Positions 1,683 through 10,259 of a stretch of 10,259 bases of DNA are shown piece by piece. A program made the position numbers and the translations under genes. The DNA lies in assembly GCA_002007315.1 (NCBI GenBank), contig LNZQ01000064.1, positions 1-10,259 on the forward strand, written 5' to 3'. Every line of letters begins with the position of its first letter. Position 1 is the first letter of the stretch. This stretch comes from Epulopiscium sp. Nele67-Bin004 (lineage in GTDB: Bacteria > Bacillota_A > Clostridia > Lachnospirales > Cellulosilyticaceae). The notes beneath the pieces are model-generated. The model was given only the letters and a program-made list of their open reading frames with translations, was not told the origin of the DNA and searched no databases.

Positions 1683-3962
1683 TATTTACAATCAGAATAT
1701 ATTGCTCAAATAGTCGAGCTTGTGCAAAGACACCCTATGTCTGTTGAGCTCATATCTAAATTTATGAGAATGACAAAAGTTACGCCAAAGCAAGTGTTTG
1801 AAAGATTGTGCAAAATACAAGGAATTGCACTTCTAAATGGTGTACCCATTAAACAGCGTAAAGATAAAAAGCTTAACAACAAAATTATTATCGGTCACAT
1901 TAGTGCTATTTTTGTAATTGCAAAACTAAAAGAAATAGAAAAAGAAATTTTGGCGAGCATGTCGGCATTTTCTATTACAAGATTTAATAAGACAAGCATT
2001 ATAACTTGGTTAAAACTTGACGATACTACACCGTTTGAAAAGTTAATTACTATGGGGTGGGTACAGCTTGACGGAGATAAAGTATCGTTACACCAAATTA
2101 TAGTTGACCTTATATATAAGGAAGAAACTCCAACAACCGACAATTGTAAAAATATTGTGACCTATATGAGTAAAGTTCCTGAAACTATGAGAGGTATGAA
2201 TTCATATAAACGAAAACAAGTTGTACAGCTATGTAAAATATTTGGAAGTCGTATTAAAGGAAGTAGTGTCGATTTATTTAATTTTTATGTTGCTTGTGTT
2301 TTTAGATGTGGAGAGCAGTTTTCCGACCAATGTTTAGCTAAAGCGGGTAAAATTATTTTGGATGTTGATAGCCAAATCCAATTTTGGATAATAAAAACTA
2401 CTTTTTCTTTAAGGTACAAAGAAACTTTTAGCTTGAAAAACTACAAGAAAGCTGTCGCACTTGCCAAGCAACATTATAATGATTATAGTTTGGCTACTGT
2501 ATGTTTTGATATAGTTAACCGACTTCTTAACGCTGACTCAGAGTTGTATTATATAGAAGATAAAGATGCCCGATATTGCAAACAACTAATTGGAGAGTTG
2601 TTTGCGAAAATTGTTGATTTAGTTGACCCGATATTATACCAAAAATTTTATACTAAGGTGTGCGATAGTGCTGTTGAATTTTATGGTGGATATTTATATT
2701 TATGGATAGGTGACTCTGATAGTGAGCAGGAGTGGCACTATTCAAATTTAAGGACACAAGCTAACGACAGACGGTTTACTCTTGGTTGTATGGATTGGAT
2801 CGATGGGGCAAAAGTGTATGAGCAAAAAGGCGACTTTGAGTCGGCAATAAAATATTATGAGATGGCGATTGAAGAAGAAATGTATCATGCGTACCCAGGC
2901 TTAATTAAGTTGTATATACAACTGGGGGATACGGCAAAAGTTGATGAAATTATAAATCAGTATATAAATTGTTATGATGATACAGATAAAATTAAACCTA
3001 TGCATGAAGTTGCGATGCTCGATAAGAAAAATACTGTTGAGTGGTTATTGAAATGTGAAACTCTGATGGACGAAACTAGTAAGTATAGTGTGTTGGTTCG
3101 TATGAAATTGTATGAACTAACAGGGGATATGGCTTATTTTGAGCAGGCGTATATGGCATATCAAAAAATATCGCTTGATGAGTTAGTGTTTTTCGAAATA
3201 GAAGACTTTATGCCATTTTTTGAAGAAGTGGTTAATAAAATTGGTGATACTTCGGCTGTCGTTGATGCATATAAATGGCTTGGGAATATCGCAGACAACG
3301 GGCTAAATCCTGAACTGGCAAGCAAGAATTTTTATGAGGGATACAAACTTGCAGATGAACACTTTGGCGAATACGATATAAGGACAGTTGAACTGTTGGC
3401 TAAATATTTGGAGTCGAATTATGAAATAGATAAATCGTTGCACGAAAAATGTCACTTTGAATTGCTGGCTGTTGAAGATACGTTTGAGCAGTGGCAACAC
3501 GTTAGCAAGTTGTATGAATGTCTACAAGATTATAAACAGGCGATTAAGTATGGGAAAATTGCTATAAATTTTTCGACTGATGACAACGAAAAACGTTATA
3601 CATTTGAACAGTTGGCTATGTTTTATGAGTATTTGGGCGATATAGAAAATTATGTGATTATGATTAAAGAGGCAATGACTATTAGCGGCGATGTGTGGCA
3701 AGGATACTTGGATATTGGACAGGCGTATATGCGACAAGAAGACTATGAAAATGCCGAATATTATTTATTAGGCGAGAAAAATATGATAGACAAAAATACA
3801 ATATTAGACTTATGTTACGAAAATAAAGACGATAACGAACAAATTATTATAGATATTTTAGTAAAATTAGAAGAAATATATCAAATTTATGGAGATGTTG
3901 ATAAATTTGATACGGTTAAATTGTGCATAAATTGTATAAATAAATCAGAGTTTGAAATTTAG
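1683..3962 (+). pseudogene. NB-ARC C-terminal half plus TPR repeats, 3' part of the kinase-STAND gene
   Basis: It lies in the same frame as the kinase/Walker part and is separated from it only by TGA 1680-1682. If reinitiated, the first available start is GTG 1722, which has no convincing ribosome binding site, so I treat this as the continuation of one gene. It opens with a GLPL-like segment (RHPMSVELISKFM, Pro at 1734-1736), then a winged-helix region with MGWVQLDGDKVSLHQIIVDL, where LHQ sits in the place of the MHD motif. The rest is helical repeat. Clear TPR units include AKVYEQKGDFESAIKYYEMA (about 2809-2870), SKLYECLQDYKQAIKYGKIA (about 3502-3561) and QAYMRQEDYENAEYYLL (about 3721-3771). 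TPRs usually sense a ligand or partner in STAND proteins. With the TGA read as a sense codon, the bacterial part would be about 1,100 residues plus the lost N-lobe. The in-frame stop could be a real nonsense mutation or a base error. Confidence 0.78.
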
Positions 3963-3977
3963 GATTGAAAAAAGTTA

Positions 3978-4014
3978 GTGTAATTCTCGGAAACTTTTTT
4001 TGATGTAGTATAAT
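3978..4014 (+). promoter_or_regulatory. RiPP operon promoter with shared GTGTAATTCTNGGAAACTT box
   Basis: The box GTGTAATTCTCGGAAACTT lies at 3978-3996, followed after exactly 12 nt by a TATAAT -10 element at 4009-4014. No TTGACA-like -35 is present at the usual distance, and the box covers that place. The same box with one base change (position 11, C to A) occurs at 6284-6302, again 12 nt before TATAAT, so it is probably a specific activator or alternative -35 site. The transcript leader to ATG 4041 would be short, about 20 nt. A weak A/T-only inverted repeat (3968-3976 with 3992-4000) overlaps the box and might act as a terminator for the upstream gene, but it has no GC stem. Confidence 0.65.
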
Positions 4015-4040
4015 GATATGTAAGGAAAGGAGGAAGTAAA

Positions 4041-4250
4041 ATGAATATGGAAGCAATGTTTGAAGGAGCAGGTAAATTATTTAATCATGCAACTAATAAA
4101 TTGGAACAGACAGTCAAAGAAAGATTACGTAAGTTTACAAATGATGAATTGATAGATAAATATGTAGAGTTAACATCAGATCCAGATGTACACCCTAATA
4201 CTATCAATATTGTTGAAGAGGAAATGAGAAGACGTAGATTAAGATTTTAG
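4041..4250 (+). CDS. Small charged protein of unknown function, first gene of the RiPP operon
   Basis: A 69-residue protein that I do not recognise. The start is set by a strong AAAGGAGG site at 4026-4033, seven bases before ATG 4041. It is predicted helical and highly charged: KLEQTVKERLRKFTNDELIDKY in the middle, a possible turn at SDPDVHPN, then a basic tail EEEMRRRRLRF. There is no Cys, no signal peptide, no membrane segment and no YxxPxL leader, so it does not look like another precursor of the type found downstream. It is the first gene after the shared-box promoter and ends 11 nt before the radical SAM gene, so it is transcribed with it. It could be a regulator, chaperone or partner of the maturase, or self-protection, but nothing in the sequence decides between these. 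Confidence 0.7.
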   Translation: MNMEAMFEGAGKLFNHATNKLEQTVKERLRKFTNDELIDKYVELTSDPDVHPNTINIVEEEMRRRRLRF

Positions 4251-4261
4251 GGGTATATTAA

Positions 4262-5305
4262 ATGAAAGATTATGTAAAAATGACACAAAATATTGATGAA
4301 AAAGCTTTGGAAAAAGAATTAGCATCAATTAAACAGTTACAAGAACAAGGTGAACATCCTATATCTTATGATTTGCCTATTACATTACAATTTGAGTTGA
4401 CAGAAAATTGTAATTTAAAATGTAAGCATTGCTATAATTCGTCAGGAATTACTACACATAAAGATAGAATGACACCTGAAAAATGGATAGAATTTAGTAA
4501 ATATATCGTAGATTTAGGTGGTATATTTCAGTGTATAATATCGGGGGGAGAGCCGTTATTATTGGGAGATAAATTGTTTGAAATAATGGATATTTTGCAC
4601 GAAAATGGAACTTCATTTGTTATGATATCTAACGGATTTTTATTAACTAGTGAAATTGTAAAAAAATTAAGTAAATATCGTTTTATGTGGTTTCAAATAT
4701 CTATCGATGGAGCAACTCCTGATTACCATGATGATTTTAGAGGAGTTAATGACAGTTGGGCACGAGCCACTAATGCTGCATATGAAATTTCAAAAGCAGG
4801 TATTCCACTAACGATAGCACATTCAATTAGTAAACAATCAGTTAAAGAAATTGATGAAATGTGCGAACTTGCATACAAACTTGGAGCAAGCAATTTAATT
4901 TTAGGTGAAATTACTCCAAGTGGACGAGCAGTAGAAAATCAAGATATTTTATTATCTATGGAAGATAGAAATATGATATTACAAAAAGTTAACGAAAACG
5001 TTGTTAACTATCAAGGGAGAATGCAAATTCAACGATCATCTAAAACTAAACTTCAACTTAAGAAGTATCAAGGGACTCCAAACGGTGGGGCTATTATTCG
5101 CCCAAATGGAGATATAAGATTAGATTGCATGACTCCATTTATAATAGGAAATGTGTTGGATAATGATTTTAATGAGATTTGGAAAGAAAAATCTGCATCT
5201 TGCTGGCATAATCCTATGATATATGATTATATAGAAAATATAGATGCTGAATATGATGCCAACAAAGAACATCAAAACTATATAGATAAAGATGTCTTAA
5301 TTTAA
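4262..5305 (+). CDS. Radical SAM peptide maturase with degenerate SPASM C-terminus
   Basis: A 347-residue radical SAM enzyme of the PqqE/SPASM-related kind, acting on a ribosomal peptide in the cytoplasm. The cluster motif CNLKCKHCY supplies Cys50, Cys54 and Cys57 for the SAM-binding 4Fe-4S centre. SGGEPLL at residues 94-100 is the SAM-contacting GGEP motif, and VMISNGFLL and FQISIDGA are the expected core strands. The C-terminal part keeps the SPASM frame (RPNGDIRLDC, IGNVL, FNEIW) but has only Cys289 and Cys314. The first CxxG is replaced by TPNGG and the final Cys cluster is missing, so auxiliary clusters may be reduced to one or none. The start at ATG 4262 follows a modest TAGGGG site and leaves 11 nt after the previous gene. 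The adjacent PqqD-like protein and two precursor peptides mark it as the modifying enzyme. The reaction (C-C link, epimerisation or other) cannot be told from sequence. Sactionine chemistry on the core is unlikely because the cores have no Cys. Confidence 0.88.
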   Translation: MKDYVKMTQNIDEKALEKELASIKQLQEQGEHPISYDLPITLQFELTENCNLKCKHCYNSSGITTHKDRMTPEKWIEFSKYIVDLGGIFQCIISGGEPLLLGDKLFEIMDILHENGTSFVMISNGFLLTSEIVKKLSKYRFMWFQISIDGATPDYHDDFRGVNDSWARATNAAYEISKAGIPLTIAHSISKQSVKEIDEMCELAYKLGASNLILGEITPSGRAVENQDILLSMEDRNMILQKVNENVVNYQGRMQIQRSSKTKLQLKKYQGTPNGGAIIRPNGDIRLDCMTPFIIGNVLDNDFNEIWKEKSASCWHNPMIYDYIENIDAEYDANKEHQNYIDKDVLI

Positions 5306-5324
5306 TGCTTAGGAGGATAAACGC

Positions 5325-5516
5325 ATGAAAAAAAGTTATTCAATTCCAAAACTAGGAAGTTTAGAAAGAACTACAGCAGGAGTTGTTCCGTTAGCTGCAA
5401 TGGCTGGGTCGGTTGCAGGATACGCAGTTGGTAAAGCAGTTAAACAAGCGTTTGAGGCTAGACCAACAAATGAAGTTTATAATTCTCTTAAAAAAGTTGA
5501 GGGAATATATGCATAG
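5325..5516 (+). CDS. RiPP precursor peptide A (YxxPxL leader, Ala/Gly-rich core)
   Basis: A 63-residue peptide with a consensus AGGAGG site at 5311-5316, eight bases before ATG 5325, the strongest in the operon, as expected for an abundant precursor. The leader has Tyr5-x2-Pro8-x-Leu10, the kind of motif that PqqD-like RRE domains recognise in lasso-peptide and other leaders. It is followed by Gly19-Val-Val-Pro22, which lines up residue for residue with the second precursor. The presumed core is small-residue rich and zipper-like (AAMAGSVAGYAVGKAV), with a charged tail that contains Tyr52 and Tyr62. There is no Cys. The tail is longer and more mixed than in precursor B, so the two mature products probably differ. 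The stop overlaps the next gene by 8 nt, indicating coupled translation. The cleavage site is not known, though the Gly19 region is a candidate. Confidence 0.78.
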   Translation: MKKSYSIPKLGSLERTTAGVVPLAAMAGSVAGYAVGKAVKQAFEARPTNEVYNSLKKVEGIYA

Positions 5517-5802
5517 TTATATAAATAAAACAGAAAAACTAGTGCCTTGTTGTACTTATATAAAAATGAGAGAAGATAACGATTTTCTTATAGTTATAAA
5601 TGAAAATCTTCAAATAGAGCATTTATCGCAAGTTGCTAAAGATTTTTATATGAATGTTGATGGTACAAAAACTATAGAAGAAATAAATCAATTGTTAGTA
5701 CAAGAGTATGATGTAGACTACAGTGTCTTACAAAATGATATGTTAATTTTTGTTAAAGACTTACAATGGAAAAAACTAATAACTTTAAAGGAGAAAATTT
5801 AA
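5509..5802 (+). CDS. PqqD-like RiPP recognition element protein
   Basis: A 97-residue PqqD-family protein, which binds the leader of a precursor peptide and presents it to the radical SAM enzyme. Typical features are the FLIVINENLQIEHLSQVAKDFYMNVDG segment, giving a winged-helix strand pair then helix, TIEEINQLLVQEYDVD, and the closing helix FVKDLQWKKLI. An upstream in-frame ATG at 5413 exists, but that extension would run inside precursor A. I chose ATG 5509 because it has GAGGG at 5499-5503 and yields the normal PqqD length with an 8-nt overlap, a common arrangement for translational coupling. Two adjacent Cys (residues 14-15) near the N-terminus are unusual for the family. It ends 2 nt before the second precursor. 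Sitting between two precursors with matching leaders, it probably serves both. Confidence 0.82.
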   Translation: MHSYINKTEKLVPCCTYIKMREDNDFLIVINENLQIEHLSQVAKDFYMNVDGTKTIEEINQLLVQEYDVDYSVLQNDMLIFVKDLQWKKLITLKEKI

Positions 5803-5804
5803 TT

Positions 5805-5957
5805 ATGAAAGCTTATAAAAAACCAAGTTTAACACGTAAACCAGAAGAATTCCAAGGAATTATTCCAGCAGCAATTGCAGCAGCATCAACGGCAGCATCA
5901 GTTGCATCAGCAGCAGCGGCGGCAACAACAGCGAGTACTTTAATGGGTAGAAAGTAG
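5805..5957 (+). CDS. RiPP precursor peptide B (YxxPxL leader, poly-Ala core)
   Basis: A 50-residue peptide starting at ATG 5805, ten bases after AAAGGAGA (5787-5794), which lies inside the end of the PqqD gene. An upstream in-frame ATG at 5766 would put 13 PqqD-overlapping residues before the leader and is unlikely. The leader carries Tyr4-x2-Pro7-x-Leu9, then Gly18-Ile-Ile-Pro21, with the same spacing as in precursor A (Tyr to Leu 5, Tyr to Gly 14, Tyr to second Pro 17). The core is almost only Ala, Ser, Thr and Val, with a MGRK end. There is no Cys, Trp, His or acidic residue after the GIIP, and the leader's Tyr4 is the only Tyr, so the possible chemistry is narrow: unactivated Ala/Val/Ser/Thr/Ile carbons, or stereocentre inversion. 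The mature form may be a hydrophobic, membrane-active helix. It is the last gene of the operon, with a terminator about 95 nt downstream. Confidence 0.78.
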   Translation: MKAYKKPSLTRKPEEFQGIIPAAIAAASTAASVASAAAAATTASTLMGRK

Positions 5958-6049
5958 TAATTAAGAATTAGTTAATAGTAAAATGATGCTGCACACATAG
6001 CAGATGAAATAAGATAAGTTTTTAGTTTGCTTGTGGCAGAATATAATTT

Positions 6050-6078
6050 AGGGAGTGGTGAAAACTGCTCTCTTTTTT
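6050..6078 (+). terminator. Rho-independent terminator of the RiPP operon
   Basis: The arm AGGGAGTGG (6050-6058) pairs with CTGCTCTCT (6065-6073) over 9 bp including G-U wobbles, with a 6-nt loop, and is followed by a T run to 6078. The stem is base-for-base the same as the one at 9783-9806; only the loop differs. Confidence 0.8.
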
Positions 6079-6280
6079 GTGTGCCCCCATTTTTACAGCA
6101 GCGTGTGTCTTTGTTAATTTTAGTCAAAATATAAAACTTTTATTGTTGCATAATTATATAAAAATCGAATACAAGTGTGTTTATACTTCTAAAACGGGCA
6201 CAAAGTCCCAAATTTAAGACAGTAGATTTGTATATAATTTGTAAAAGTAAATCTAATTTTAAACTTTAGTATAAAAATCT
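6079..6280. other. AT-rich intergenic spacer without recognised gene
   Basis: No ORF with a credible ribosome binding site and no tRNA is visible on either strand. The only structure noted is a small GGGC-ACAAA-GTCC-type hairpin near 6195-6208 and a loose AGATTT/AAATCT inverted repeat near 6226-6256. Neither matches a riboswitch I know. Together with 5958-6049 and the promoter region, it makes the roughly 470-nt gap between the RiPP and nuclease operons. Confidence 0.5.
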
Positions 6281-6282
6281 AT

Positions 6283-6320
6283 AGTGTAATTCTAGGAAAC
6301 TTATTACACTTTGGTATAAT
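6283..6320 (+). promoter_or_regulatory. Nuclease/stalk operon promoter with shared box and 8-nt inverted repeat
   Basis: The box GTGTAATTCTAGGAAACTT (6284-6302) matches the RiPP promoter box at 18 of 19 positions, with the same 12-nt gap to TATAAT (6315-6320). Here the -10 is extended (TGG before TATAAT). This copy also forms a perfect inverted repeat, AGTGTAAT (6283-6290) and ATTACACT (6303-6310), separated by 12 nt. The second arm is not present in the RiPP promoter, so the conserved element is the box rather than the palindrome. The leader to ATG 6431 is about 105 nt. Confidence 0.65.
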
Positions 6321-6349
6321 GTTAATTGTGGAGGAGATACAGAAAATAG

Positions 6350-6388
6350 ATGATTTCTATTTCGATTTCTATTTTGATTACTTTTTGA
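6350..6388 (+). other. Possible 12-residue leader peptide over 12-nt tandem repeats
   Basis: ATG 6350 opens a short frame reading MISISISILITF and a TGA, 13 nt after a GGAGGAG stretch (6330-6336). The DNA beneath is a tandem repeat GATTTCTATTTC (6352-6363), GATTTCTATTTT (6364-6375) and a decayed third unit to 6387. A second overlapping frame from GTG 6328 also stays open to TAG 6409-6411. The spacing is long and the repeat alone could create these frames, so translation is uncertain. Confidence 0.25.
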
Positions 6389-6430
6389 AGAAGACTAAGA
6401 TAAGGTCATAGATACTAGGAGGATACAGTT

Positions 6431-7609
6431 ATGCAAAATATTACAGTTGAAGAATGGAACAGTTTGGTAAAAGAATGTAACGGTGATGAACAAAAGGCTA
6501 CAGAGTGCCTTGATTCATATATCACAGCACTTGCAAGCGGAGTATTAGCAAGTGAGGCAATTACAACAAGTATTAAAAATGCTGGGTTGTATAACAAAAT
6601 GGCAAATAATTTATCTCACTACAACACTATGCGTGGTGGCACTAAAGGTTTTAAAGGCTTTGTGTTTGAAGAACTTCATGCAACGCAAGCAACTATTAAC
6701 GGACAGGCAACACAAGTTATCGCCAATAATGGTATTGCTGATTTTTATATATTAGATGCTGACGGCGGGACAACTTTAGCTCAAGCAAAAGTAGGGTACA
6801 AAACAGGTAAAGTTGATTGGGATGCATATGGTGATCAAACTATTGTTATTGATAAAGGCAATCAACAATTAATTGATAGTGCAAAAGCAGCTGGAAAAAA
6901 TGTAATTGAATCTGACATTTCTGCAAAACAAGCAGAGGCATTGTCTAAAGCTATGCAAATGGAAACAAAAATTACAGGTAAGCCTAATTCTACAATAGTA
7001 ACTAAAGGTTATTCAACTGCAAAAACTGTAGGACAAGCACACAATGCAGGTATTCAAGCAGGAATAAAAGGTGCACAATTTGGAGCAGGTATGAGTATAG
7101 GAGCAAATATTGTTGATGTTGCAAATGGGGATAAAGAATTTTCGGAAGCGGCTGAAGATGTTGCTGTTGATACGGTTGTTTCAGGAGCGACAAGCTATGC
7201 CGTTGGTGCAGCATCTTCAATAGTTGGAAGCACAGCAGTTGGAGCAAAAGCAATAGGGGCAGCATCTGGTGCAGTATCAGGAGTATCATCAGTCGCAACA
7301 GGAGCAGCAACAATGGCAGCAAATTCAGCGGTTGGAAGTGCAGCAATCGGAGCGGCATCAGCAACAACAGCGGCAGTAACAGGTGCAGCTACAGCAGCAA
7401 CGACAGCAATTACAAGTACAGCAGTTGGAGGAGCAGTTGCAGGAGCGGCTACAGCAGCAGGAGCGGTAGCAACAGGGGCAGCCACAGCAACAGTCGCTGC
7501 AATTGGAAGCACAGCAGTTGGAGCAACAGCTCTTGCGGCAGCACCAGTAGTAGTAACAGGAGCTGTTATTGGTGGTATAGCAAAAGGAATATCAGGGTGG
7601 TTTAGATAA
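6431..7609 (+). CDS. Putative Mrr-like nuclease domain fused to long Ala/Gly zipper tail
   Basis: A 392-residue protein with AGGAGG at 6417-6422 before ATG 6431. Residues 1-60 are a helical, mixed-charge head. Residues 70-145 contain KGFVFEELHA (Glu80/Glu81), NGIADFYIL (Asp104) and TTLAQAKVGY (Gln118-x-Lys120), in the order and spacing of the PD-(D/E)xK superfamily. The D...QxK form is the one seen in Mrr-type restriction domains, so a metal-dependent DNA or RNA cleaving activity is plausible. From about 250 to 386 the protein is almost only Ala, Gly, Val, Thr and Ser, with repeated GSTAVGA, GAATA and AVGGAVAGA motifs resembling glycine zippers, ending in GGIAKGISGWFR. The tail could insert in or cross membranes, or form a tight coiled packing. 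No classical signal peptide is seen. It is first in its operon, 19 nt ahead of a secreted stalk protein. A toxin or competition effector fits, but this is inference from motifs. It could also be a phage-derived structural or lysis protein. Confidence 0.6.
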   Translation: MQNITVEEWNSLVKECNGDEQKATECLDSYITALASGVLASEAITTSIKNAGLYNKMANNLSHYNTMRGGTKGFKGFVFEELHATQATINGQATQVIANNGIADFYILDADGGTTLAQAKVGYKTGKVDWDAYGDQTIVIDKGNQQLIDSAKAAGKNVIESDISAKQAEALSKAMQMETKITGKPNSTIVTKGYSTAKTVGQAHNAGIQAGIKGAQFGAGMSIGANIVDVANGDKEFSEAAEDVAVDTVVSGATSYAVGAASSIVGSTAVGAKAIGAASGAVSGVSSVATGAATMAANSAVGSAAIGAASATTAAVTGAATAATTAITSTAVGGAVAGAATAAGAVATGAATATVAAIGSTAVGATALAAAPVVVTGAVIGGIAKGISGWFR

Positions 7610-7628: not shown

Positions 7629-8057
7629 ATGAAAAAACTAGCATTAACTTTATTAGCATTCACACTAACAACACAAACGATACTTGCATCGGATTTCAAC
7701 TTAATTATTAACGGTGAAGTATCAACAACAGCATCACCAACGCAACAAAACGGTACAACGTTAGTACCAGTGCGATTTGTGAGCGAACAACTGGGCGGAC
7801 AAGTGAATTGGGACGCCGCAACAGAAACGGTAACTATTACAAGAGATGGGGTGGACATAGAGCTTAAAGTTGGTAGCACAAATGCCAAAATTAACGGGCA
7901 ATCGTCAACACTTACACTAGCACCAACAGTGCAAAACGGCACAACGATGATACCACTAAGATTTGTTTCGGAGGCGTTGAACGTGCCTGTTGATTGGGAC
8001 GCAGATACAAGCACGGTGCTTATAAATTCGGATAAAGCAGACTTGGCGAAGTTGCCA
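7629..8057 (+). repeat. Direct repeat unit 1: stalk-domain module
   Basis: The first 429 bp of the stalk gene recur at 8880-9308. I count about 18 base differences by eye, roughly 96% identity, mostly silent, with 4 amino-acid changes. The match begins at the start codon and stops abruptly after the LAKLP codons. Confidence 0.9.
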
Positions 8058-8534
8058 CCTAAAACTGCACAAACGCAAGGTTTTGATGCAATAACAATGT
8101 TAGATTATAAGTTTCCAAACTCAGAAAAAATATTCGATACGTTTAAAGAACACAGCATATCTCATAATTTAGTTGCAACTGGTAGTCGTGACTATTACAA
8201 TGCTTATGAATTAAGTGGCGATGGGTTTAGTGCACTAATGTACTTTGATGAAGCTACAACACCACCAATAGACCCTTTGGCTATAACATATATACAAGTA
8301 AACGAGGGTATAGTTGATGGTATAGTTATTGGCGAAACTACTGTACAGGAAGTGTTTGAAAAATATGGATACCGTGGGTCGTTAGGTCTATCAGAAATGG
8401 ATGGTACTTATGATGTTATATATAGCCTAATTGAGTTTAACGATATGTATATATCAATGTTTGTATCAGGAGAAACAGATAGTCCAACTACAAAGGTTAA
8501 GAAAGTAAGCTTGAAATTTACACCATATTTATAA
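7629..8534 (+). CDS. Secreted stalk-domain (copper amine oxidase N-like) protein, copy 1
   Basis: A 301-residue exported protein with a strong GAGGAGGAG site just before ATG 7629. Residues 1-20 form a signal peptide (MKK, a hydrophobic stretch, ILA-SD cleavage). Residues about 22-135 are two halves of the Cu_amine_oxidN1/stalk fold: FNLIINGE with NGTTLVPVRFVSEQLGG and WDAATETVTI, then INGQ with NGTTMIPLRFVSEAL and DWDADTSTVLI. This module is common in clostridial cell-surface and secreted proteins, where it probably serves as a scaffold. After a short linker, residues 152-301 are a different domain that contains DGIVIGETTVQE (residues 230-241) and ends YISMFVSGETDSPTTKVKKVSLKF. That domain shows faint similarity to the C-terminus of the second copy. 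No catalytic motif is recognised. The N-terminal 143 codons are almost identical to those of the copy at 8880. Confidence 0.85.
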   Translation: MKKLALTLLAFTLTTQTILASDFNLIINGEVSTTASPTQQNGTTLVPVRFVSEQLGGQVNWDAATETVTITRDGVDIELKVGSTNAKINGQSSTLTLAPTVQNGTTMIPLRFVSEALNVPVDWDADTSTVLINSDKADLAKLPPKTAQTQGFDAITMLDYKFPNSEKIFDTFKEHSISHNLVATGSRDYYNAYELSGDGFSALMYFDEATTPPIDPLAITYIQVNEGIVDGIVIGETTVQEVFEKYGYRGSLGLSEMDGTYDVIYSLIEFNDMYISMFVSGETDSPTTKVKKVSLKFTPYL

Positions 8535-8879: not shown

Positions 8880-9308
8880 ATGAAAAAACTAGCATTAACT
8901 TTATTAGCATTCACGCTAACAACACAAACGATACTTGCATCGGATTTTAACTTAATCATTAACGGTGAAGTGTCAACAACAGCATCACCAACGCAACAAA
9001 ACGGTACAACGTTAGTACCAGTGCGATTTGTGAGCGAACAACTTGGTGGACAAGTAGATTGGGACGCTACAACGGAAACGGTAACTATTACAAAAGACGG
9101 GGTGGACATAGAGCTTAAAGTGGGTAGCACAAACGCCAAAATTAACGGGCAATCGTCAACACTTACACTAGCACCAACAGTGCAAAACGGCACAACGATG
9201 ATACCACTAAGATTTGTTTCGGAGGCGTTGGACGTGCCTGTTGATTGGGACGCAGATACAAGCACGGTGCTTATAAATTCGGATAAAGCAGACTTGGCTA
9301 AGTTGCCT
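8880..9308 (+). repeat. Direct repeat unit 2: stalk-domain module
   Basis: Second copy of the 429-bp module at 7629-8057, in the same orientation, 822 bp after the end of the first. Recombination between the copies would delete the membrane protein gene and swap C-terminal domains. Confidence 0.9.
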
Positions 9309-9770
9309 GAAAAGCCGTTTGATATTGGGAAAATTATAGTCAACTCTAAAGATGACGATATGTTGTATTTGTATATATTCGAGGCACTTGGAGAGAACGG
9401 TGCAAGTAGTGCGGTAGTAGAGTCATCGTATGATAATACCGAAAGTATGATTGCAGTTATTGGGAAAAATATAAATGCAAATATGTTTTTCCATAATAAT
9501 AGCTCTCTTATAGGTTGGATGGAGCTTTACGCTGGTTCAATGTTTAATGGTGTTGAAGTCGGCAAAACAACTTTGCAAGAAGCTAAAAGTCTTTTAGGCG
9601 GGACAGTTAAAGTAGAGGATATTGATGAAATGAATTGGGTGCATTTTATAGAACTAGACTTAGGAGAAATTTCAATTATAATGTGGGGCGAAACATCAGA
9701 TTCAAATTCTGTAGTTGAACGACTAAGAGTAGGGTTTGATTCACCATTGCAACCAATTAGAACAAATTAA
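8880..9770 (+). CDS. Secreted stalk-domain (copper amine oxidase N-like) protein, copy 2
   Basis: A 296-residue paralogue of the protein at 7629. The signal peptide and both stalk halves differ at only four of the first 143 residues (N60D, A64T, R72K, N118D). The upstream spacer does not match, so the homology starts at the ATG; the ribosome site here is AAGGGGA. From residue 144 onward the sequence is unrelated at a glance: EKPFDIGKIIVNSKDDD and a Glu/Ser/Asn-rich globular region. It does keep NGVEVGKTTLQE (residues 223-234) and a closing ISIIMWGETSDSNSVVERLRVGF, which line up with the corresponding parts of copy 1. The C-terminal domains are therefore probably distant relatives that diversified while the stalk was kept uniform. 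The function of the C-terminal domain is unknown. This is the last gene before a strong terminator. Confidence 0.85.
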   Translation: MKKLALTLLAFTLTTQTILASDFNLIINGEVSTTASPTQQNGTTLVPVRFVSEQLGGQVDWDATTETVTITKDGVDIELKVGSTNAKINGQSSTLTLAPTVQNGTTMIPLRFVSEALDVPVDWDADTSTVLINSDKADLAKLPEKPFDIGKIIVNSKDDDMLYLYIFEALGENGASSAVVESSYDNTESMIAVIGKNINANMFFHNNSSLIGWMELYAGSMFNGVEVGKTTLQEAKSLLGGTVKVEDIDEMNWVHFIELDLGEISIIMWGETSDSNSVVERLRVGFDSPLQPIRTN

Positions 9771-9782
9771 TGGATTAATATT

Positions 9783-9812
9783 AGGGAGTGGCGTAGGCTG
9801 CTCTCTTTTTTT
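9783..9812 (+). terminator. Rho-independent terminator after the stalk operon
   Basis: AGGGAGTGG (9783-9791) pairs with CTGCTCTCT (9798-9806) around the loop CGTAGG, followed by a T run to 9812. The stem is identical to the terminator at 6050-6073 while the loop differs. Confidence 0.85.
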
Positions 9813-10017: not shown

Positions 10018-10259
10018 ATGCAATCAAGAACACATAATTGTAATGACCTTCGTAGCGAACATATCGGACAAAATGTAACGCTAGTAGGTTTTTATGAAAA
10101 TCTGCGTAAAGTGTCAAAAAATCTAGGATTTCTAGTGCTTAGAGATTTTTACGGTACAACACAAATCGTTATTGAAAATGAAGAAATGATGGACAAACTA
10201 GGCGAGCTTAACACAGAGTCTACACTACAATTTAACGGAGTTGTTAGAGAACGTTCTAG
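10018..10259 (+). CDS. aspS: Aspartyl-tRNA synthetase, N-terminal part (runs off the window)
   Basis: Eighty codons plus two bases are visible, with no stop before the edge. The sequence is the N-terminal OB-fold that binds the tRNA anticodon: SRTHNCNDLRSEHIGQNVTLVGF, a strand pair at GFLVLRDFYGTTQIVIE and the closing VVRERS. This matches the bacterial AspRS/class IIb synthetase opening RTH.C..L....G..V.L.GW...R...G..F..LRD..G..Q.V, in the form found in clostridia, with NLRKVSKNLG in place of the usual RRDLGG. The enzyme charges tRNA-Asp in the cytoplasm. The catalytic domain lies beyond the window. It has its own promoter and follows a terminator, so it is a housekeeping gene bordering the accessory region. 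Confidence 0.88.
   Translation, partial: MQSRTHNCNDLRSEHIGQNVTLVGFYENLRKVSKNLGFLVLRDFYGTTQIVIENEEMMDKLGELNTESTLQFNGVVRERS

Follow-up and report, generated by a model that had tools for sequence, protein, structure and literature searches.

A compact apparent operon of Epulopiscium sp. Nele67-Bin004 combining a radical SAM enzyme, a PqqD-type recognition element, and two candidate peptide precursors

Several radical S-adenosylmethionine (rSAM) systems that act on peptides provide a background for the locus described here. Proteusin epimerases of the PoyD type carry the rSAM cluster only, and a single Cys residue (Cys372) is strictly conserved in almost 70 PoyD homologs (PMC8326336). The epipeptide epimerase EpeE/YydG contains two clusters and uses Cys223 (PMC8326336). 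The sactisynthase SkfB has a fused recognition element (RRE) for ribosomally synthesized and post-translationally modified peptides (RiPPs) and an auxiliary cluster with Cys351, Cys385, and Cys387 as ligands (PMC6231123). PqqE works with a separate RRE, PqqD, in pyrroloquinoline quinone (PQQ) chemistry, which joins Glu and Tyr, and the leaders of lasso systems with a discrete RRE contain YxxP, a reported recognition motif (PMC12710340). Here, we describe an apparent operon in a 10,259-nucleotide stretch of Epulopiscium sp. Nele67-Bin004 (contig LNZQ01000064.1; "the window"), in which an rSAM gene is followed by genes for two short candidate precursors, A and B, on either side of a gene for a PqqD-type RRE.

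The gene order was that given in a preliminary description of this DNA, namely rSAM, A, RRE, and B, with a 69-aa open reading frame (ORF) at the 5' end and a terminator-like hairpin at the 3' end, and the ATG of the RRE gene overlaps the stop codon of A (Table 1). The RRE matched PF05402 above its cutoff, and the adjacent enzyme matched PF04055 with 90.5 bits against a cutoff of 29.5; folding the RRE as a single sequence gave a poor model (predicted local distance difference test score of 50.4), which was not used. We infer one transcript for the five ORFs, and the 69-aa ORF possibly shares the transcript of the rSAM gene. Terminator-like sites numbered three on both strands of positions 3800-6600, including one within the rSAM gene, compared with 0.5 (standard deviation, 0.8) in shuffles, and promoter-like sites were not enriched (12 versus 16.2 in shuffles). 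None of the five operon ORFs encoded a protease, a transporter, or a cyclase.

The two precursors share the pattern Y-x2-P-x-L-x8-G-[VI]-[VI]-P exactly, with the same residues (Y5, P8, L10, G19, and P22 in A; Y4, P7, L9, G18, and P21 in B) and the same spacing (Tyr to Gly 14, Tyr to Pro 17), as the preliminary description had noticed. The mechanical ORF list opened B at 5766 (63 aa), and its last 50 codons correspond to 5805-5957; we favored the 50-aa start because it follows an AAGGAG Shine-Dalgarno sequence and because the database protein P0126 begins at the same Met. In the window, read in all six frames, the strict pattern occurred at 5337 and 5814 only, and 997,310 bases from 99 further loci of similar G+C content (0.37 against 0.35) contained no match, although it was a pattern chosen post hoc, with the data already seen. 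The YxxPxL segment alone was common in the same bases (246 matches, approximately 2.5 per window length, compared with two in the window) and was therefore uninformative by itself. The evidential strength thus lies in the full pattern, post hoc as it is, together with the gene order. The first 25 residues of A and B shared seven identities at the best offset, a number reached in 321 of 20,000 residue shuffles and thus only modest. When a profile of the A-like proteins that left out B was compared with B by hhalign, the leader alone aligned (25 columns; E-value, 1.4e-4; probability, 52%). Four less strict matches to the leader, found in other loci, were dropped, three of them lying in long frames or frames exceeding the locus and one in a 39-residue frame lacking Met.

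Table 1. Features of the apparent operon, with positions in the window
Feature	Position	Strand	Remark
69-aa ORF of unknown function	4041..4250	+	11 bases upstream of rSAM gene
Radical SAM peptide maturase (predicted), 347 aa	4262..5305	+	CxxxCxxC motif spanning residues 50-57; C-terminal part twitch-like
Candidate precursor A, 63 aa, A-like sub-family	5325..5516	+	Shine-Dalgarno AGGAGG
Leader pattern in A, YSIPKLGSLERTTAGVVP	5337..5390	+	Pattern scan
PqqD-type RRE, 97 aa	5509..5802	+	PF05402, 4.8e-08, 33.6 bits (cutoff 23.4)
Candidate precursor B, 50 aa, B-like sub-family	5805..5957	+	Shine-Dalgarno AAGGAG; one mismatch to P0126
Leader pattern in B, YKKPSLTRKPEEFQGIIP	5814..5867	+	Pattern scan
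Intrinsic-terminator-like hairpin 3' of B	6050..6073	+	10 pairs followed by T run

To the precursor A used as a query, one relative other than itself responded (P0122; E-value, 0.019; 38% identity). A profile built from A, P0122, and the N-terminal 23 residues of B yielded seven rows of 1437 candidates: A and P0122, both in the profile, and P0126, P0123, P0124, P0125, and P0127, the last four with E-values from 4.8e-17 to 0.093. The recovery of P0126 was expected, since the profile included the B leader. These relatives fell into two sub-families, five A-like proteins (P0122-P0125 and P0127, the last named as from a Selenomonadaceae metagenome-assembled genome) and the B-like P0126, which is identical to B at 49 of 50 residues. 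The A-like relatives have in common YxxP, [VIL][VIF]P, a variable-length stretch rich in Ala, GYA[VI]GR, and a basic tail, and their best-kept block after the leader lies around GYA[VI]G[RK]xxK. With YxxPxL in A and B, and YxxP in P0126 and all five A-like relatives, the N-terminal segments can be assigned from sequence to the YxxP leader type.

The preliminary description had gone further in treating the leader as a fixed ruler, and this part failed: the distance from Tyr to Pro was 17 in A, B, and P0126 but 16 in four A-like relatives and 18 in one, and the exact pattern was present in two of the seven rows (A itself and P0126), making the spacing a local feature. Its description of the cores as Ala-rich and Cys-free was likewise borne out in part. 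Ala accounts for 48% of the residues after the Pro in B but for a modest 22% in A. Neither A nor B contains Cys, but three of the five A-like relatives (P0122, P0123, and P0124) carry a Cys at the C-terminal end or directly beside it. Core B consists of A, I, S, T, V, L, M, G, R, and K only, ending in TLMGRK, and the first Glu after the Pro in A is residue 44, 22 residues on. A GxxxG motif coincides with GYA[VI]G in all six A-like proteins, A included, and is absent from B. Such motifs mark helix pairing in two-peptide bacteriocins. A and B may represent a two-component peptide pair drawn from distinct sub-families, although the two kinds were not seen together outside the window.

We then considered the enzyme. 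Its SPASM match (PF13186) remained below cutoff (19.2 against 21.5 bits), and no NCBIfam cutoff was reached among the best 25 of 86 matches (E ≤ 1), the best scoring 123 of the 500 bits needed. In PHROGs, the enzyme matched general rSAM or unnamed groups, and none of the other seven proteins searched had a match. Relatives were numerous, with 884 database proteins at E ≤ 1e-20; among the best 120 of these (query included), the others were 51-61% identical to the query. In 108 aligned close relatives, Cys50, Cys54, Cys57, and Cys289 were invariant, so that Cys289 (codon 5126-5128) is the sole invariant Cys outside the CxxxCxxC motif. Cys91 was present in 103 of the 108, whereas Cys201 (84) and Cys314 (77) were not fixed, and a Cys within residues 250-288 was found in eight. 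The closest fold to the predicted model, among the matches listed, was that of SkfB. Profile alignment placed SkfB Cys351 at Asp288, beside Cys289, and SkfB Cys333 at position 271, which is Cys in two of the 108 relatives; a CxC after residue 289 occurred in one. As judged from this alignment, the ligands of an auxiliary iron-sulfur cluster are not conserved in the 108 members, and Cys289 and, to a lesser extent, Cys91 are candidates for a hydrogen-atom donor outside the cluster.

The combination of one invariant extra Cys, no conserved ligands for a second cluster, and an aliphatic core is best fitted by RRE-guided peptide epimerization with Cys289 as the hydrogen donor, a reading that we favor tentatively and hold at somewhat less than even chances. 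By analogy with the protein families, the PqqD-type RRE would bind both leaders through their YxxPxL segment and pass each peptide to the rSAM enzyme, which would keep a twitch-like fold but not the auxiliary cluster ligands. The enzyme would take alpha-hydrogens from Ala, Val, Ser, Ile, and Thr residues that follow the [VI]P boundary, and a thiol of the protein, most likely that of Cys289, would give back a hydrogen atom to leave D-residues, in line with proposals for PoyD and EpeE. Genes outside the operon would have to provide leader removal and export, and the resulting pair would be hydrophobic membrane peptides that may act together. PoyD-type enzymes resemble this scheme in having one cluster and one strictly conserved extra Cys, and their modified core residues include aliphatic ones. 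Compared by description, the two systems differ in that the RRE in the window is a separate protein and in that its partner leaders are short and of the YxxP type, in contrast to the nitrile-hydratase-like proteusin leader. It is doubtful, though conceivable, that the locus stands for an undescribed RiPP class in which twitch-fold rSAM epimerases lacking an auxiliary cluster work with a separate PqqD-type RRE on two partner peptides, one nearly pure in Ala, Ser, Thr, and Val and the other with a conserved GYAVG[RK] block, to give two-component membrane peptides containing D-residues.

Four points weigh against epimerization. EpeE was far from the nearest fold to the model, with many other rSAM folds ranked above it, and its sequence match was only 4.9e-4 (the absence of PoyD from the fold matches listed is no evidence either way). 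Known epimerases, PoyD among them, appear to be leader-independent according to PMC8326336, unlike a system with an RRE. Cys91 is nearly as invariant as Cys289. Finally, the GYAVGR block suggests a site-specific change. A different, perhaps novel, RRE-guided rSAM modification of aliphatic, Ser/Thr, or Lys/Arg residues is a realistic possibility, if one we put below an even chance; it could be an ether or C-C cross-link, a dehydrogenation, or a cyclopropane, possibly near the G-[RK] common to the A-like proteins and B, where the best-kept A-like block and the end of B lie. Cores devoid of Cys and aromatic residues are open to rSAM chemistry, as illustrated by TvgB, which converts Val of TVGG repeats to cyclopropylglycine (PMC9062424). 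In the C-C cross-linkers PqqE and SuiB, however, auxiliary clusters are present and are reported as essential for modification (PMC8326336), whereas ligands of this type are unconserved in the present family and B has no Tyr after its leader. PQQ chemistry would need Glu and Tyr, neither of which follows the leader in B; although PqqE/PqqD likewise pair an rSAM enzyme with a discrete RRE from this Pfam family, both equivalog models scored below cutoff (PqqE, 102.2 of 381.35 bits; PqqD, 25.9 of 46 bits).

Because core B lacks Cys, aromatic, and acidic residues, it is unsuited to lasso formation, thioether formation, and splicing alike. Spliceotides carry a YG splice motif in the core, and no YG occurs in A or B. 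Lasso peptides matured by a cyclase and a leader protease encoded elsewhere in the genome would account for the YxxPxL leader and the discrete RRE but are very unlikely: the Pfam scan of 10 window ORFs found no cyclase or leader peptidase, B offers no Asp or Glu beyond P21 with which to close a macrolactam ring, and A reached 12.4 bits on a cyanobacterial lasso model with a cutoff of 33. A sactipeptide or ranthipeptide system is scarcely credible. Among the matches listed, the fold nearest to the model of the enzyme is SkfB, and a Cys lies at or beside the C-terminus of three A-like relatives, but thioether formation is already contradicted for A and B, which contain no Cys, and the enzyme differs from SkfB in its separate RRE gene and unconserved ligands. 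It is also improbable that A and B are small membrane proteins that lie by chance beside a PqqD/rSAM pair acting on another substrate. Their hydrophobic Ala/Gly-rich segments and the GxxxG of A would suit such proteins, and linkage of the rSAM family to these precursors was seen in one locus, this window; against this, otherwise differing ORFs on both sides of the RRE gene share a similar leader, and the stop of A overlaps the RRE start. Overall, the preliminary interpretation of a RiPP-type operon with a shared RRE-type leader, Cys-free peptides A and B, and no lasso cyclase or protease found in the operon was supported, and its fixed spacing and uniform Ala-richness were not.

Searches elsewhere used the rSAM enzyme, as a single query or a profile, and the precursor profile. 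Among genome contigs (12 stretches), the single query found one locus, 28% identical and titled Candidatus Bathycorpusculum; it found none among viral contigs (17 stretches), nor did the precursor profile (29 stretches), and phages gave no rSAM match. A 36-row profile (A1) retrieved 78 viral-contig loci at 20-41% identity over the best segments, which we judged too distant. Three plasmid records matched at approximately 29%, and the two inspected contained other rSAM genes without a PqqD or small precursor, in incomplete gene tables. In 200 genomes around G001, 20 had a match at E ≤ 1e-40 in 22 places, but the open frames spanned 474-752 residues (21 places) or 329 (one) and were therefore judged not to belong to the 347-aa family. 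No title or opening of an abstract among the literature matches listed described the family, which may be listed in PMC9062424, PMC12710340, PMC7470986, PMC8326336, PMC6231123, PMC10352776, the JACS 2022 rSAM RiPP atlas, or RadicalSAM.org; the figures and files of PMC9062424 include further unreported pathways. The family is large, and the copy in the window reached no NCBIfam cutoff among the best 25 of 86 matches, yet clear candidate substrates adjoin it. With one enzyme, one RRE, and two peptides, the locus offers a small system for studying how a twitch-fold rSAM enzyme without conserved auxiliary ligands acts on a core free of Cys and aromatic residues.

As for the surroundings, the 69-aa ORF matched no Pfam family above its cutoff, no NCBIfam model at E ≤ 1, and no PHROG at E ≤ 0.01. 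The hairpin at 6050-6073 is very similar to one at approximately 9784-9812 (AGGGAGTGG...CTGCTCTC), and each closes a gene group, the second as judged by eye. At the 5' end of the window, the ORF at 1-1682 starts with a retroelement-type reverse transcriptase and RNase H (PF00078 and PF17919) and, from approximately base 675, gives way in the same frame to a protein kinase and NB-ARC match; the contig is probably a chimeric join of retroelement and bacterial sequence near 640, 3.4 kb from the operon. An in-frame TGA at 1680-1722 lies between the kinase/NB-ARC ORF and a TPR ORF that shares its frame, perhaps the sign of a split gene or a sequence error. Downstream of the operon, the 392-aa ORF at 6431-7609 has a long C-terminal half rich in Ala, Gly, and Thr, and it matched neither a Pfam nor an NCBIfam family above cutoff, nor a PHROG at E ≤ 0.01. 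The ORFs at 7629-8534 and 8880-9770 agree in 136 of their first 140 residues and, with no realignment, in 11 of the 157 that follow, which by sequence comparison is a partial duplication; the first of the pair, which the Pfam scan covered, contains PF07833. Finally, the sequence at 10018-10259 resembles, by eye, the N-terminus of an aspartyl-tRNA synthetase cut by the end of the window.
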